Source: a virus
Strand: one strand, 5' to 3'
IMG/VR virus record: IMGVR_UViG_3300020034_000075
Coordinates: 1 to 20,588 of that record
DNA length: 20,588 nt
Positions 4,360-14,211 of the stretch are shown in pieces. The translations under genes were made by a program, and so were the position numbers. The notes beneath the pieces were generated by a model, which searched no databases, was not told the origin of the DNA, and saw only the letters and a list, made by a program, of their open reading frames with translations. Within the stretch, counting starts at the first letter, position 1; every line of letters begins with the position of its first letter.

Positions 4360-6072
4360 ATGTCAATACAGAATAGACAATTCCAAATAGATACTGTAGA
4401 TCATACGTACAAAAAACTTCTTGAAGAAAGGGTTTGGTGTATGCAAGGTGCCACCGGTTCCGGTAAAACAGTTATGTTTTGTAAGATTGCGCAAAGGTAT
4501 GTAAGGCAATTCAATAAATCAGTACTGATACTTGTAAACCGTAAAGAATTACTTGGACAAGCATATGATACAGTAAAAGAAATAACTGGTATTACACCTT
4601 ACATAATAAATGCAGAAACTAAAAGGTATGCTATAGCCAGGGTCTATATTGGTATGGTTGAAAGTTTGATTGCAAGAACAAATCTATTTGATAACGTTGG
4701 TTTAGTAATTATTGATGAGTGTCATATAGCTAACTTCAATAAGGTTATCCCAATGTTCATGGAGGAGTTGATTCTTGGGTGTACAGCAACTCCGCTGGCT
4801 ACATCAAAACTAATGCCAATTAAAAGATTCTACAATGGCATAACATTAGGTCCTCAAATTGAAACGTTGATAGGGATGGGGTATCTATCTCAAAACGTAA
4901 CACGTTGTCCTAAGGATATAGTTGATGCCAGCGAATTTAAAGTTGATAGAATGAGTGACGACTATAACGTTGCTCAAATGTCTGCTGCTTATCAGGTTCA
5001 GAAACATGTAATTAATGTAGTTAAGGAATACAGAATATTTTGTAAACGTGAGAAAACTATTGTATTCAATGTCTCTATCGAACATAGTAATAACGTAGCC
5101 GAGTGTTTCAGAGAGATGGGGTATAATTGCAGGCACCTTGGTTCTGATAACGAACATGAACGTGATGAGATACTTAAATGGTTTAAAGAAACTAAAGATG
5201 CAATACTTTGTAATGTGATGATTGCAACTGTAGGATTTGATGAACCATCTGTAAGGAACATTATACTTAATTTTAGTACACTTAGCTTAGTTAAATACAT
5301 TCAATGTTGTGGAAGAGGTTCTCGTGTAATGGATGAAATATTCATTAAAGAAAACCAATGGAAGTATCCGTATCAATTAGAGACTAAGGATTACTTCAAT
5401 ATAATTGATATGGGAGGTAATAGCGCAACTAATAAGTTTGGTGACTGGAACCAAGATCGTGACTGGGAGTATATATTTTACCATCCACCACAGCCAGGCG
5501 AAGGTATAGCACCTGTTAAAACATGTCCACAGTGTCAGGGCTTGTTACATGCAGCAGCAAGGCAATGTAACTTAAAGTTGCCAAATGGTGATTTATGTTT
5601 ACATGAGTTCAAGAAGATTCAGATGGAAGAGCAGGATATTGAGGAGATGATAATGATAACCAAAGGAATAAATGTTGATGAGATAACAACAAAGTATAGG
5701 AAGAAGTATGAATACTATCCTATGCTTGCACTTGGAGAGCATGTTGTTGAAAGAATGTGTAAATCTAATAGCAACTTGACAGATGATATTGTTAATAGGT
5801 ACTTTAAAATGTATTATGAGTTGTGTTGTGAGTGGTATGATAAGTTTTTAGCTGGTAAAGAATATAGGCTGGATACTATTGAAGATAGCGCTTTTCATAT
5901 TAAACTTGCAACAAACAACTTCGGGAATCTTTGTAAAAGGTTTACAGGTAATATAATAACTCCGACGAAATTTTACGATTGGAAGAGCGAAACAAAAGAT
6001 GAAAAACCAACAGGTATATTAACTGTTGATGAGTATAGACAAAAATATTTGGGACACGAGAAAACAGCCTAA
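4360..6072 (+). CDS. superfamily 2 DEAD/DEAH-like helicase with zinc ribbon
   Basis: This is an ATP-dependent nucleic acid helicase or translocase, probably acting in phage DNA replication or recombination. Visible motifs in order are a Q-motif-like RQFQ (6-9), Walker A GATGSGKT (30-37), motif Ia VNRKEL, Walker B DECH (119-122), motif III TATP (142-145), and motif VI QCCGRGSR (315-322). After the two RecA folds comes a four-cysteine zinc ribbon: CPQC (389-392), C403 and C413. The remaining roughly 150 residues are helical and unassigned. The architecture resembles the UvrB/RAD25-like helicases of many phages. At 570 aa it appears complete. It starts 3 nt after the previous gene and its stop lies 3 nt before the primase-helicase, so the two are translated from one mRNA. 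Confidence 0.92.
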   Translation: MSIQNRQFQIDTVDHTYKKLLEERVWCMQGATGSGKTVMFCKIAQRYVRQFNKSVLILVNRKELLGQAYDTVKEITGITPYIINAETKRYAIARVYIGMVESLIARTNLFDNVGLVIIDECHIANFNKVIPMFMEELILGCTATPLATSKLMPIKRFYNGITLGPQIETLIGMGYLSQNVTRCPKDIVDASEFKVDRMSDDYNVAQMSAAYQVQKHVINVVKEYRIFCKREKTIVFNVSIEHSNNVAECFREMGYNCRHLGSDNEHERDEILKWFKETKDAILCNVMIATVGFDEPSVRNIILNFSTLSLVKYIQCCGRGSRVMDEIFIKENQWKYPYQLETKDYFNIIDMGGNSATNKFGDWNQDRDWEYIFYHPPQPGEGIAPVKTCPQCQGLLHAAARQCNLKLPNGDLCLHEFKKIQMEEQDIEEMIMITKGINVDEITTKYRKKYEYYPMLALGEHVVERMCKSNSNLTDDIVNRYFKMYYELCCEWYDKFLAGKEYRLDTIEDSAFHIKLATNNFGNLCKRFTGNIITPTKFYDWKSETKDEKPTGILTVDEYRQKYLGHEKTA

Positions 6073-6075
6073 TTA

Positions 6076-8286
6076 ATGCCAAAGGTAAGCCTTTTTAAAA
6101 ACGTTGGAGAACCAAGCAATCCAGAGATCATAGATTTAATACTACAACTGGAAGATACAAGGGATGGGAAATGGAAGGATATAACTAATATATGCAGAAA
6201 TTTAAAGACTAAAGAGGAGAGAGATGCGTATAAAAGAACGATGCCAACATGTTCATACTCAGGTGAATTCAGTTATCGTGCTAATGATAAGTTAATAACT
6301 CATAGTGAGATAATCAATATTGATCTTGATTATGTTGAAGGTATTGTTGCATTGAAAAGAAAACTTGAAAATGATAAGTATGTATTCTCTGTATTTCAAA
6401 GCACATCTGGATATGGGTTAAGGGTATTATTCCAAATAAATCCAAATAAACATGAGGAGTCGTATCGTGGTATATCAGAATACTTATTTAATGAATACGG
6501 ACAGGTTACAGACCCTAATGGAGTTTCGTTAAGTAAACCATACTGTGTTACTTATGACCCTTATCTTTGGCTTAATCCACAAAAAACAACACTGTGGACT
6601 AAATATCCAAAGGAAACTGTAATAAAAAGACTACCTGATTTCGTACATACGGCTGGAGATTTTGATTATGTAATGAAACAGATAACTGGTAGGCAAGTTA
6701 ATATTTGCGAATCGTACGACGACTATCTTAAAGTTGGTTTGGCGTTAGCCTCCCAATTTCAGGAGAACGGACGACAATACTTTCACGATCTTTGTCAGTT
6801 TTCAAATAAGTATAAGTTTAAAGTTGTTGAGAAACAATATAATTACTGTTTAAAGGCTCATTCGGATGGTAAACGAGTTGGAATATCCAGCTTTTATTAC
6901 TTAGCTAAGTTAAACAATATTAATATTTGCTCTGAACAAACAAAGAAAGTTGTTAAGGCCACAAAAAGTAGTAAAAGGGTTGGGTTGAAACCTAAGCAAA
7001 TAATAGAAAACTTACTTAAAAACGAAGGTATATCTGGAGTTGATGAACTTGTAACTAATATATTTGAATCTGGTGATGATTATAATGATGAGGAACAATC
7101 TATATTACATGAGTTAGAGTTATACATAAGAAATAACTATTCGTTACGATTGAATGAGGTAACTGGGTATCTTGAACATAATAAGATGGCGTTATCCCAG
7201 GGCTATCTCAACTCAATGTTTATATCAGCAAAGAAAGTGATACCTAAGCTGGACTATCCATTGATGAAACGATTACTTATGTCTGATTTTGTTGAGACGT
7301 ACAATCCTTTCTACGAATTTTTAGGAAGTGATGGCATACCTTATCCATTACCAGCTATATCTGTTGTGCAAGATTTAGATTTATTTCCAAGTCCTCTGAT
7401 AGATAAGTTGGCATCCTGTATAAAAAACGACCAGCCAGCGTATACTTGTTATTTTTTGAGGAAATGGATTGTTTCGATAATTTCTGCTATGCACAAGGTT
7501 CATAGTCCACTTGAGCATATACTTGTAGGGCCTCCAGAAACAGGTAAAACTGAATTTTACAGAAGGTTGTTACCAAAGGAGTTGGTTCCGTACTATGCAG
7601 AATCTAAACTTGATAAGGGAAAAGATGATGAACTACTAATGACACAGTATATTGTGATAATGTATGATGAGTTATCTGGAAGAAGCAAACAGGAAGCTAA
7701 TAAAATGAAGGCTTTAACATCTGTTCAACATTACTATATAAGACGACCATATGCCGAAAATAATGAGAAAATATTGCGTCTGTCTGTTTTGTGCGGTACT
7801 TCTAATATCTTGCAAATCATTAACGACCCTGTGGATAATAGACGGATTATTCCAACCGAGGTTGATGATCTCGATAGAGTCTTATACAATAGTATTGATA
7901 AACGAGAGCTTTTCTTTGAAGCATTCAGATTATATAAGGCAGGCTTCGACTGGAGGGTTACCCGTGCTGATATGCCTTACCTTAATATTAATATTGAAAG
8001 ATATCAACACATTGTTAAAGAAAAAGAACTAATAGAGAAATATTTTGAGCCATGCGAAGATCATTTAACCGGATATGAAGTTGTAACATCTACTGATTTT
8101 CTTGTGGAAATTGAATTTTTAACAAGGCAAAAGTGTAATCCGGCTGTATTAAGAAGGCAACTTGAGTTATTGGGATATGAATATAAAAGTAGGCGTGTTG
8201 GCAAATTCAAAGTTGTAAAGGCTTGGGGCGCAAAGAGGATTAATAGACCAGGAAGCGATACTACAGAGCAACCATTAAATTTTTGA
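6076..8286 (+). CDS. VirE-type primase-helicase
   Basis: This is a bifunctional replication protein of 736 aa. The N-terminal domain (about 35-175) resembles VirE_N/BT4734, an archaeo-eukaryotic-primase-like fold. It shows INIDLD with paired acids D83 and D85 and a STSGYGLR motif (109-116). The middle (about 195-285) resembles a PriCT-2 domain (CESYDDYLKVGLALASQF). The C-terminal half is a VirE/SF3-like helicase with Walker A GPPETGKT (485-492) and Walker B VIMYDE (acids D531, E532), followed by a sensor-like LCGTSN. It probably makes primers and unwinds DNA at the phage origin. It is tightly coupled to the SF2 helicase upstream. A linker around 310-350 is acidic. Domain names are from motif recognition only. 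Confidence 0.88.
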   Translation: MPKVSLFKNVGEPSNPEIIDLILQLEDTRDGKWKDITNICRNLKTKEERDAYKRTMPTCSYSGEFSYRANDKLITHSEIINIDLDYVEGIVALKRKLENDKYVFSVFQSTSGYGLRVLFQINPNKHEESYRGISEYLFNEYGQVTDPNGVSLSKPYCVTYDPYLWLNPQKTTLWTKYPKETVIKRLPDFVHTAGDFDYVMKQITGRQVNICESYDDYLKVGLALASQFQENGRQYFHDLCQFSNKYKFKVVEKQYNYCLKAHSDGKRVGISSFYYLAKLNNINICSEQTKKVVKATKSSKRVGLKPKQIIENLLKNEGISGVDELVTNIFESGDDYNDEEQSILHELELYIRNNYSLRLNEVTGYLEHNKMALSQGYLNSMFISAKKVIPKLDYPLMKRLLMSDFVETYNPFYEFLGSDGIPYPLPAISVVQDLDLFPSPLIDKLASCIKNDQPAYTCYFLRKWIVSIISAMHKVHSPLEHILVGPPETGKTEFYRRLLPKELVPYYAESKLDKGKDDELLMTQYIVIMYDELSGRSKQEANKMKALTSVQHYYIRRPYAENNEKILRLSVLCGTSNILQIINDPVDNRRIIPTEVDDLDRVLYNSIDKRELFFEAFRLYKAGFDWRVTRADMPYLNINIERYQHIVKEKELIEKYFEPCEDHLTGYEVVTSTDFLVEIEFLTRQKCNPAVLRRQLELLGYEYKSRRVGKFKVVKAWGAKRINRPGSDTTEQPLNF

Positions 8287-8287
8287 T

Positions 8288-8584
8288 ATGTATAAAAATC
8301 CTCCATACAAAAGAATAACTTTAAGTATTCATGAGATACAAAATTTATCTCATGAAATATCTACAGGTAAAAAACTAAAAGATATAGCAAAATCCTTTGG
8401 ATGGTCTGACTCTAAACTTATGCAACAGAAGAAATTATTAGGAATAAGTAAGCCTAGTGATTCTTTTGATAATAAGAAAGTTACATTGCAACTTAGTATA
8501 CCTCGTAAACATTATAATTCAGCGTTAAAGAGATTTAATGAAATAATTAAAAATGATTACAAGGTTACTGATAAGAATATTTAA
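8288..8584 (+). CDS. small protein with helix-turn-helix-like segment, 98 aa
   Basis: I cannot name this protein. Residues about 25-52 (TGKKLKDIAKSFGWSDSKLMQQ) follow the spacing of a helix-turn-helix: a helix, the turn SFGWSD, then a second helix. That suggests DNA binding. The C-terminal part is basic. Its ATG lies 1 nt after the primase-helicase stop, so it is the last gene of the replication operon. The intergenic region right after it is packed with TGTTAA repeats and a promoter-like element, which makes a regulator acting there conceivable, but this is speculation. Confidence 0.6.
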   Translation: MYKNPPYKRITLSIHEIQNLSHEISTGKKLKDIAKSFGWSDSKLMQQKKLLGISKPSDSFDNKKVTLQLSIPRKHYNSALKRFNEIIKNDYKVTDKNI

Positions 8585-11883: not shown

Positions 11884-12111
11884 ATGTTAGTAAAACGCAC
11901 ATCAACTTTAACAGGAAAGACTCATCAGTTAGATATTCCGATTACACATGAACATCTGGAAGCATTTGAATTAAATGGAGTTATATTCACTTTAAGTTCG
12001 GCTCATGTTCGCTATCTTCAATACGGCATTACACCTGAAGAATGGCAACAACAACTGGATGAATTGGACAAAAACGACGATACAGACCCTAATTCGAGGT
12101 ATCACAGTTAA
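11884..12111 (+). CDS. small hypothetical protein, 75 aa
   Basis: I do not recognise this protein. The first half is beta-rich with a TGKTHQLDIPITHEH segment. The second contains GITPEEWQQQLDELD, an amphipathic helix, and an acidic polar tail. The length and coding-like codon pattern support it. It is the last gene before the 650-nt repeat region. Confidence 0.65.
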   Translation: MLVKRTSTLTGKTHQLDIPITHEHLEAFELNGVIFTLSSAHVRYLQYGITPEEWQQQLDELDKNDDTDPNSRYHS

Positions 12112-12235
12112 CTGATTCTGAATGGCAAGCACAGTTTTAACAAATCCACTAGTAAATGTATTTTATTTTTTGGTATATGTCGCGTATTTCTGACATTTTG
12201 TATGGTTTACTTTACAATGGCCACTTTGTCACCCA

Positions 12236-12269
12236 CTACACGTAATATGCTGATATTCAATTAGTTACG
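12236..12269 (+). repeat. dyad repeat copy 1 (CTACACGTAA...TGATATTCA)
   Basis: CTACACGTAATATGC is followed by TGATATTCAA and an AGTTACG end. The left GTAA and right GTTAC arms and the TGATATTCA core give imperfect dyad symmetry. Same orientation as copy 4. Confidence 0.75.
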
Positions 12270-12434
12270 AATGACATATTGGCATGTAGTGGGCAATGTA
12301 GTATTTACGAAATGTTTCTTACACTACATGCGAGACAGCCACCACAGCGGGTTACATGGAATAAAAAATTAAATGTAGTGATTGTAGTGGGGTAATCCAA
12401 AAGACCCACCAGCATTTTGGGCAAAAAAAAAATA

Positions 12435-12533
12435 TGTCAAATTAAGGAAGCCTTAAGTATGGTATATTACGTATATTGTTCTTAAGTATGCTATAACTGT
12501 AGTTAATGAATCTGTATATTCCTTAATTTGACA
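12435..12533. repeat. 99-bp element with 15-bp perfect inverted ends
   Basis: TGTCAAATTAAGGAA (12435-12449) is the exact inverse of TTCCTTAATTTGACA (12519-12533). Both ends abut the triplet ATA, which could be a 3-bp target duplication. Inside, CTTAAGTATGGTATA (12452-12466) recurs as CTTAAGTATGCTATA (12481-12495). It could be a miniature inverted-repeat element, or a cruciform or hairpin belonging to an origin. No transposase is present. Confidence 0.65.
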
Positions 12534-12604
12534 ATATGAAAATAATGGTATATATTTGTACGGCTCGCAGCAATTTACCCCACTACAAATGCGTTTTTTC
12601 GCTT

Positions 12605-12637
12605 GTAACACGTTGATTATCAATACGTTACGTGTAG
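12605..12637 (-). repeat. dyad repeat copy 2
   Basis: GTAACACGTTGATTATCAAT is followed by ACGTTACGTGTAG. Its reverse complement starts CTACACGTAAC, matching copies 1 and 4. Within it, GTAAC pairs with GTTAC and TTGAT with ATCAA. Confidence 0.75.
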
Positions 12638-12670
12638 TAATGACGCACTACAAAATTACTACAATTGGGT

Positions 12671-12703
12671 GTAATGTGTTGATATTCAATATGTTACGTG
12701 TAG
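12671..12703 (-). repeat. dyad repeat copy 3
   Basis: GTAATGTGTTGATATTCAAT is followed by ATGTTACGTGTAG. It has the same length (33 nt) and orientation as copy 2, 33 nt downstream of its end. Confidence 0.75.
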
Positions 12704-12715
12704 TGCCCCCCGTTA

Positions 12716-12750
12716 CTACACGTAACATGCTGATAATCAGCGAATTATAA
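12716..12750 (+). repeat. dyad repeat copy 4
   Basis: CTACACGTAACATGC is followed by TGATAATCAGCG and a degenerate right arm. It is oriented opposite to copies 2 and 3 and faces them across a short GC-rich spacer (CCCCCCG). Confidence 0.7.
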
Positions 12751-12766
12751 CATGTTGATATTCAAT
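12748..12766. repeat. dyad repeat core, copy 5, touching a start codon
   Basis: TAACATGTTGATATTCAAT contains only the core and left arm of the repeat and runs into the ATG at 12765. A protein bound here would block translation or transcription entry of that gene, which suggests autoregulation (inference). Confidence 0.55.
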
Positions 12767-13133
12767 GACTTATGAAAAACACACTAAACACACAGATATG
12801 ATAAGTACAGTACAAAGAGAAGACACAGTTCAAGCATCAGCCCGTAAGATATTTGAACATTTCGAAGTTGGGCAGAGTTGTACAATTACAGGATTCGTAA
12901 TTATGCCAGATGACTCAATTGACGAGAAAGGTAAGTTGGTATGCGATGAGTTGATAAGACTTGATTTCGTTGAGAATTTCAATCGGTCAGGCTCAACTCG
13001 AGGTAATGGTATGCGACGGCGAAGAATACGTCCAGAGAATAGTATTGGCGACTATTTAAGGAAAAAGACATTCCAATGGCAGAGAAAAATAATTGATAAC
13101 CAAGTAAGATATACTATATGGCGCATACAATAA
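12765..13133 (+). CDS. basic hypothetical protein, possibly DNA-binding, 122 aa
   Basis: I do not recognise this protein. Residues about 20-65 (VQASARKIFEHFEVGQSCTI) and the following segment (DEKGKLVCDELIRLDFVENF) have the helix-helix-strand look of a winged-helix domain. The middle is strongly basic (RSGSTRGNGMRRRRIRPENS), which suits DNA contact. The C-terminus returns to a strand-rich segment. An alternative start is the Met at 12798. It sits directly downstream of the palindromic repeat block, one copy of which touches its start codon, so it may bind those repeats. Its end overlaps the next gene by 16 nt. Confidence 0.68.
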   Translation: MTYEKHTKHTDMISTVQREDTVQASARKIFEHFEVGQSCTITGFVIMPDDSIDEKGKLVCDELIRLDFVENFNRSGSTRGNGMRRRRIRPENSIGDYLRKKTFQWQRKIIDNQVRYTIWRIQ

Positions 13134-13342
13134 TTACTTTAAACAGCAGGTTCACTCTGGAGTTTAAGATTAAACGTGATAACCTGAAAAAGATAGAGGA
13201 GGTATTGAATGTGAACGGATTAACTCATACAACCTGGCAGCAAACAGGTTTCCCAGCATTTTATTCATTCAGAGTAGATTGTAACTTACGCCAAGCAGAG
13301 TTGGCACGACAATTACTCAAAAACTTTAAATTGTATGACTAG
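13118..13342 (+). CDS. small hypothetical protein, 74 aa
   Basis: I do not recognise this protein. It is predominantly alternating strands and helices (ITLNSRFTLEFKIKRDNLKK; RQAELARQLLKNF), resembling a small two-layer alpha/beta fold. It overlaps the upstream gene by 16 nt and the downstream nuclease by 8 nt, so it is part of the nuclease-terminase operon and translated by coupling. Confidence 0.65.
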   Translation: MAHTIITLNSRFTLEFKIKRDNLKKIEEVLNVNGLTHTTWQQTGFPAFYSFRVDCNLRQAELARQLLKNFKLYD

Positions 13343-13691
13343 TTCAGAAGAGCGCCTCCAATCACAATGCACCCAATGGTTCTGGAACGAATTTCCACTG
13401 GAGCGCAGGATGTTATTTCATGTAGATAATAACTCATGGAATGCTATAGTTGGCGCAAAGAAGAAAGCATTAGGTGTAGTATCTGGTGTGAGTGACTTGA
13501 TTTTTATTGTGGACTCGGCTGTTATATTCATTGAAATGAAAATACCAGGTGGAACGCAGAGCTCTGAGCAGATGGACTTTGAGATGAAGGTGAATGTGCG
13601 CGCACACGAGTATGTGATTATTTATTCTTTTGAGGAATTTAAGAAATTTATTATTAAACGTTTAATGAGAGCATTCGATGGAAGATCGTAA
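13335..13691 (+). CDS. VRR-NUC domain nuclease, 118 aa
   Basis: This is a small PD-(D/E)xK endonuclease of the VRR-NUC family, which includes phage single-domain enzymes that act on branched DNA. The catalytic pattern is GVSDLIFI (D54), then IEMK (E67 and K69) in a hydrophobic strand context, followed by GGTQSSEQMDFEMK, the Gln-containing helix typical of the family. Its length, about 118 aa, matches stand-alone VRR-NUC proteins. It overlaps the small terminase by 14 nt, so it is likely made together with packaging proteins. It may resolve branched replication intermediates before packaging (inference). Confidence 0.88.
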   Translation: MTSSEERLQSQCTQWFWNEFPLERRMLFHVDNNSWNAIVGAKKKALGVVSGVSDLIFIVDSAVIFIEMKIPGGTQSSEQMDFEMKVNVRAHEYVIIYSFEEFKKFIIKRLMRAFDGRS

Positions 13692-14211
13692 ACAAACCTC
13701 ACAACAACAATGGGAGGTTATCAATAATTATCGAGAGATACAGTCAATGACACCAGAACAACTATGGGACAACGCCATGTCTTACTTTGAGTGGTGCAGA
13801 GATAACCCGATACAGGTGTACAAATCAGTATTAAGTGGCAAAGATGTAGGCAAACGTGTGTTACTTGACCTTCCGGTTATGTTCACAATCAAGGGATTAT
13901 GCCTACATTGCAACATACTAGAAGAGTACCTGAAATCGTTGAGGAACATGAAGGATACAGCACCTGACTGGTACATAGTGGCTAGCAAACTGCTGTATAT
14001 CATACATGATCAGAACATGACTTACGCTGCCCTGGACCTGTTTAATCCGATACTTGTTGGAAGATTACACAATATAGAGAAGGACGACTCGCCGTCTGGC
14101 AACATTGTTATAGAACATGTACAGTATTTGCCAACTCTAAGCAAATCTGAATCTGAAGTTTTGGATAAGTTAGAATCGAAAGATCAATTGTTTACAAAAG
14201 ACGATTTATAG
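13678..14211 (+). CDS. terminase small subunit
   Basis: This is the DNA-recognition subunit of the packaging motor, which binds the phage pac or cos site and hands DNA to the large subunit. Residues about 20-45 (SMTPEQLWDNAMSYFEWCRD) and the helix-turn-helix-like FTIKGLCLHCNILEEYLKSL (about 62-85) match the GP3-type small terminases common in Bacteroidetes phages. The C-terminal tail (GNIVIEHVQYLPT then acidic and Lys residues) is the usual oligomerisation or large-subunit contact region. At 177 aa the size is normal. It overlaps the nuclease gene by 14 nt. Unusually, the large subunit does not follow directly: 2.4 kb intervene. Confidence 0.82.
   Translation: MEDRKQTSQQQWEVINNYREIQSMTPEQLWDNAMSYFEWCRDNPIQVYKSVLSGKDVGKRVLLDLPVMFTIKGLCLHCNILEEYLKSLRNMKDTAPDWYIVASKLLYIIHDQNMTYAALDLFNPILVGRLHNIEKDDSPSGNIVIEHVQYLPTLSKSESEVLDKLESKDQLFTKDDL

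Follow-up and report, generated by a model that had tools for sequence, protein, structure and literature searches.

The window analysed here, that is, the whole 20.6-kb stretch of DNA, is a linear IMG/VR record and a fragment, and it showed no useful match to phages or plasmids at the DNA level. Its replication module contains a DEAD/ResIII-type helicase (4360..6072, + strand) and a primase-helicase (6076..8286, + strand) with BT4734-like_N, PriCT_2, and VapE-like domains in Pfam, the VapE-like helicase part of which matches in sequence the solved helicase PDB 7pds, 'Similar to D. nodosus vapE' (E=1.4e-8). Directly after the primase gene, a small HTH-like protein (8288-8584) with a weak match to the terminase-small-subunit HTH (PF10668, E=0.007) is encoded, a possible DNA-binding accessory. 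Further downstream, positions 12112-12798 are intergenic, with a small open reading frame (11884-12111) as the left neighbour and, as the right neighbour, a gene for a small basic protein that is usually read from 12765. A VRR-NUC nuclease (13335-13691, + strand) and the terminase small subunit TerS (13678-14211, + strand) are the syntenic neighbours on the right-hand side of this gap.

The initial annotation described a five-copy dyad array in mixed orientation in the gap, and both the copies and their orientations were confirmed. The window contains exactly four copies of CTACACGTAAY (12236 and 12716 on the + strand; 12627 and 12693 on the - strand) and five of TGATAWTCA, at 12251, 12614, 12680, 12731, and 12756. 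The repeat array is real, and is larger than was described, with a more numerous word, ACTACA/TGTAGT, having been overlooked. Within 12232..12720, 13 ACTACA words were found on both strands, six on the + strand (12235, 12323, 12582, 12647, 12658, and 12715) and seven on the - strand (12285, 12297, 12374, 12383, 12498, 12633, and 12699). These 13 words occupy less than 500 bp, compared with a maximum of 5 ACTACR per 600 bp in 60 dinucleotide shuffles, and eight of the nine copies of CACTACA in the window lie inside 12234-12705. The iteron is this ACTACA word and not the 27-bp dyad, the imperfect palindrome (consensus RTAAYRYRTTGATNATCAAYRYRTTAY) to which each TGATAWTCA core extends. The dyads start at 12242, 12605, 12671, 12722, and 12747, and all five match the dyad model at 24 or more of 27 positions, a level reached by no site in 60 dinucleotide shuffles; no other 27-mer in the window exceeds 20/27.

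Words and dyads together form a repeating module, in which two opposed words (ACTACA...TGTAGT) lie about 51 bp apart (50-52) with a dyad in between. Module 1 (12232..12293) consists of CCCACTACA, the dyad at 12242-12268, and TGTAGTGGG, with opposed words 50-51 bp apart; module 2 (12579..12638), of CCCACTACA, the dyad at 12605-12631, and TGTAGT, 51 bp apart; and module 3 (12646..12706), of CACTACA, the dyad at 12671-12697, and TGTAGTG, 52 bp apart. An incomplete module (12715..12773) begins with ACTACA at 12715 and continues with two dyads (12722-12748 and 12747-12773), its right-hand word being missing. Over the window and two diverged relatives (L004 and L005), 11 opposed pairs were observed at 50-53 bp against 0.56 expected, a number reached in 0 of 20000 randomisations.

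The iteron sets flank an A+T-richer centre (12396..12574), the presumed unwinding region, with about 70-78% A+T across 12425-12550, a modest enrichment over the value of about 64% with which it was compared. This centre is surrounded by an outer inverted repeat (12382-12395/12575-12588, TTGTAGTGGGGTAA) and contains an inner one (12435-12449/12519-12533, TGTCAAATTAAGGAA), the latter being partly kept in L004 as AAATAAGGAA/TTCCTTAATTT. Cumulative GC skew, which the initial annotation had proposed as a check, showed only a weak local turn in the window and was uninformative. Promoters of Bacteroidota follow a -33/-7 consensus, and with this as a yardstick, inspection of the sequence indicated a candidate Bacteroidota-type promoter for the rightward genes at 12528..12558 (+ strand), composed of TTG at 12528-12530 and TATATTTG at 12551-12558.

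The TerS proteins of the two diverged relatives are 71% (L004/G009) and 67% (L005/G010) identical to that of the window, and both relatives carry the array in the same gap, ahead of the homologue of the 12765 gene, VRR-NUC, and TerS. Module 2 is the best conserved block in the two, and a fourth member of the family, L078, contains six dyads and eight ACTACR words. Taken alone, the ACTACA cluster of L004 does not beat shuffles (7.2 versus a maximum of 7.8), and in L005 clusters in coding sequence outscore it. The homologues of the 12765 gene in L004 and L005 show 46-48% identity in the alignment, and further homologues were found only within the immediate family; the small basic protein itself gave no Pfam or PHROG match, and its predicted structure is of low confidence (pLDDT 54). 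The fifth dyad core had been reported to touch the start of this gene. It does adjoin the ATG at 12765, but the L004 and L005 homologues start at the equivalent of the ATG at 12799, preceded by an A-rich ACTAAACA-type leader that has a similar counterpart in the window. The apparent contact is therefore probably an artefact of choosing the first ATG, as judged from these three sequences, and the first gene past the array likely extends over 12799..13133 (+ strand).

The comparison was extended to cultivated relatives sharing the gene order VapE, gap, VRR-NUC, TerS, and TerL. In four of these phages, no k-mer cluster in the entire genome (35-39 kb) is stronger than the one in the VapE/VRR-NUC gap: AGGTAAC x8 in mumin6-1 (top score 16.6), GGTTACAC x8 in FPSV-S1 (22.1), TGGAACA x7, a word also given as TTGGAACA, in lotta8-1 (13.5), and AGTGACCA x5 in phi18:1 (12.9), the exact copies in phi18:1 all being in one orientation. 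Shuffle maxima for these four genomes were 6-8.4. The origins predicted in this way for phi18:1 and FPSV-S1 are located at 13.6 kb and 22.1 kb, respectively. Array scores here and below are Poisson values without correction for how many words were tried; shuffles and controls serve as the yardstick. In the same gap, P12024S showed only a weak cluster and phi46:1 no clear one. The statement in the initial annotation that such an array is not known from described phages is only half right: the kind is known from SaPI and SCCmec elements, and cultivated Flavobacterium and Cellulophaga phages have equivalent, unannotated arrays. A search limited to the open-access literature turned up no account of iteron origins in Bacteroidota phages. 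In KC821619.1 (L101), the domains and context of gp23 and gp26 are those of a replication primase and helicase; the two have been published as virulence-related (PMC11946311).

Loci from host genomes, plasmids, and phages were also picked purely by primase or VapE homology, and in these unselected loci a two-way iteron array with an element-specific word was the usual finding in the gap that immediately follows the 3′ end of the VapE-type helicase gene. Such arrays were clear, and came straight after the helicase gene, in the host loci L112 (TGTAACA x12) and L126 (AGTGATAG), in L113/L129 (GGGTAA x9), L120 (GTCAAC x7), L131 (TGTCATCA), L132 (AAGTCAAC), and L140 (AAAGTACG), in the Streptococcus thermophilus phage SW6 (L122; GGTAAC x9), and in a Prevotella VapE-toprim-relaxase element (L117; TACTACA x5 together with a CTGATTATCAA dyad). 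In a Nostoc plasmid (L121), GGTGGAAC x9 at 4907-5250 falls within what is annotated as the 3′ end of the VapE open reading frame, suggesting either that the end of the gene was misread or that the origin is intragenic. Arrays were moderate in L118, L124, L125, and L130, and no clear array was found behind the gene in L116, L119, L127, L128, and L139. As controls, six weak AAA matches (L133-L138) reached scores of no more than 3.9, and in the helicase-less BT4734_N loci (L109, L110, L111, L114, and L115) no array followed the gene. In the converse scan, in which ACTACA/dyad units alone were used, L080, L081, L082, L088, and L091 were recovered, with arrays immediately 3′ of their VapE/BT4734 helicase genes, and a scan for ACTACA triplets alone yielded L212 and L153, with the same position 3′ of a helicase gene.

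Taken together, these observations make it highly probable that 12232-12773 is an iteron-type replication origin of the phage, used by the primase-helicase encoded at 6076-8286. The initial annotation had left the choice between an iteron origin, a partition-like site, and a multi-operator switch; the first is now strongly favoured, the other two having no specific support. The 12765 protein had been put forward for binding assays, but arrays of this type adjoin primase-helicase genes in elements showing no 12765 homologue, and for this reason the primase-helicase is the likely binder. By analogy with SaPI Rep, the ACTACA iterons would be its binding sites, with the C-terminal domain probably recognising them; the C-terminal region of about 100 aa, modelled as H-H-E-E with low confidence (mean pLDDT 47), is proposed as the iteron-binding part. 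Opposed iterons about 51 bp apart, or roughly five helical turns, would set pairs of helicase rings face to face, and the DNA would open in the A+T-rich centre that separates the two iteron sets, with the primase-helicase being loaded there. We infer, rather than observe, this binding, the pairing of two rings, the start of replication in the array, and the opening and its place. An initiator of the Rep_3/RepE type is not indicated, in that no Rep_3 match was obtained among the main window proteins scanned.

The alpha protein of phage P4 unites primase and helicase in one initiator and acts on short iterons in both orientations, but the P4 iteron word is unrelated to that of the window, and ori and crr are separate in P4. 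In SaPI origins, oppositely oriented iterons surround an A+T-rich region. In the window, likewise, there is an iteron cluster far above chance, opposed iterons lie around an A+T-rich centre, and a primase-helicase of the VapE/D5 class is encoded. The differences from SaPI are the iteron words, the pairing of opposed iterons, 51 bp from each other, on either side of a 27-bp dyad, and the Bacteroidota host. According to PMC7581432 (citing Ubeda et al. 2007), the C-terminal domain of SaPI Rep helicases recognises multiple short iterons directly downstream of the helicase's own gene, apparently as two hexamers. The likeness extends to the multiple short iterons, to a self-loading helicase of the primase-helicase class, and to the position directly downstream of the helicase gene, which is found in most relatives of the window phage and not in the window family itself. 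Because the array of the window lies 4 kb downstream of the primase-helicase gene, not directly behind it, and binding is predicted, the array is regarded as a variant working like a SaPI origin rather than as a strict member of that class. The SCCmec protein Cch2, a D5-class helicase, acts like SaPI Rep (PMC7581432) in that its C-terminal domain recognises a small number of short repeats located immediately after its own gene; its origin, however, has three direct 5-nt repeats, in contrast to the large two-way array of the window. The module of S. thermophilus SW6 is similar in that a two-way GGTAAC array directly follows a VapE-like helicase gene, but it has a separate primase gene, another iteron, and no dyad. 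The module of opposed iterons and dyad looks undescribed, although the kind of origin is known.

Multi-operator control, in which a regulator (the 12765 protein or the HTH-like 8288-8584 protein) on the dyads switches the promoter at 12528-12558 for the packaging genes, would suit the location of the array between the replication and packaging modules, the candidate promoter inside it, and the fit of palindromic dyads to a dimeric regulator. It leaves unexplained, however, the 13 opposed ACTACA words at a fixed spacing of 51 bp, as well as the equivalent arrays immediately 3′ of helicase genes in ICE-like, plasmid, and host-genome loci, where different genes follow; furthermore, elements that lack a 12765 homologue (L080, L082, and L117) also have dyads in their arrays. 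As the main function it is therefore unlikely, although a secondary regulatory role beside the origin is possible. That the array is a packaging start (pac/cosB) read by the TerS encoded 1 kb downstream appears very unlikely: TerS is indeed nearby in the window, L004, L005, and L078, but similar arrays also come after helicase genes where no terminase is encoded close by, for example in the Prevotella element L117 and the host loci. A parS-like partition or centromere site of a plasmid-like phage, suggested by the several palindromic dyads and by a Hymenobacter-type plasmid contig that has ParA and Rep_3-like genes and also TTGATWATCAA dyads in an array, is highly improbable, with the conserved partner of the arrays being the primase-helicase, no ParA/ParB annotated in the cultivated relatives, and no ParA/ParB family match among the window proteins scanned, which are part of the open reading frames of a fragmentary record. 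Finally, a role in recombination or attachment, with ACTACA as the arm-type and the dyad as the core-type site, is scarcely credible, the resemblance to tyrosine-integrase arm and core sites being superficial, with four to six dyads rather than one core, arrays coming after helicase genes, and no integrase family match among the window proteins scanned.

If the array is an origin as proposed, for many phages, mobilizable elements, and prophages of Bacteroidota the origin would be readable from sequence as a two-way cluster of a short word behind a VapE-type helicase gene, and the word varying per element would provide a natural series on how VapE-type helicases recognise DNA. The 'virulence-associated' label (PMC11946311, phi18:1) would be corrected, with the context of the VapE-type gene being a replication module, and the fixed 51-bp opposed geometry would offer a testable hint on the loading of two helicase rings.

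With respect to the 27-bp dyad, a search of 84,980 genomes returned 31 exact matches, 30 of them in Bacteroidota and nearly all intergenic. The reading of the dyad core as a common chromosomal motif of this phylum was rejected: random TTGATWATCAA matches in one genome lacked the extended dyad, and the 25-mer (at most one mismatch) was absent from 147 of 148 genomes of the phylum, the sole exception being the centre genome, itself found through the dyad motif. A general iteron function was also rejected, with gaps behind unselected VapE genes having iterons but no TGATWWTCA dyad, and pattern-found ACTACA arrays without the dyad existing too. The dyad was found with ACTACA arrays in several elements, including the unselected locus L117, but not with origins using other words, nor with every ACTACA array. 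Because it is tied to some ACTACA arrays and absent from other-word origins, the dyad is, judged by this distribution, an accessory element, which may be a further binding site of the initiator or one for a host factor. A more specific version, in which phages and mobile elements have built a Bacteroidota host-factor site into their origins so that dyad and opposed iterons form a phylum-specific origin module, is doubtful.

The dyad also occurs in other settings. Single exact copies lie between genes in Bacteroidota chromosomes (L013-L043), and in a Cytophagales MAG (G002) the 15-bp core is present 49 times, in some cases with repeated flanks. One perfect dyad was found on a 4.8-kb, putatively microvirus contig with a pilot-protein-like open reading frame (L011:917-943), and two related phage contigs each have one perfect dyad adjoining a terminator-like hairpin (L008:1893-1919 and L012:12840-12866). 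In the Hymenobacter-type plasmid contig (L066:7311-7610; G084 contig C16), which encodes ParA and a Rep_3-like initiator, AGTGCCCC words in both orientations, spaced 53-54 bp apart, adjoin the TTGATWATCAA dyads at least 6.5 kb from rep.
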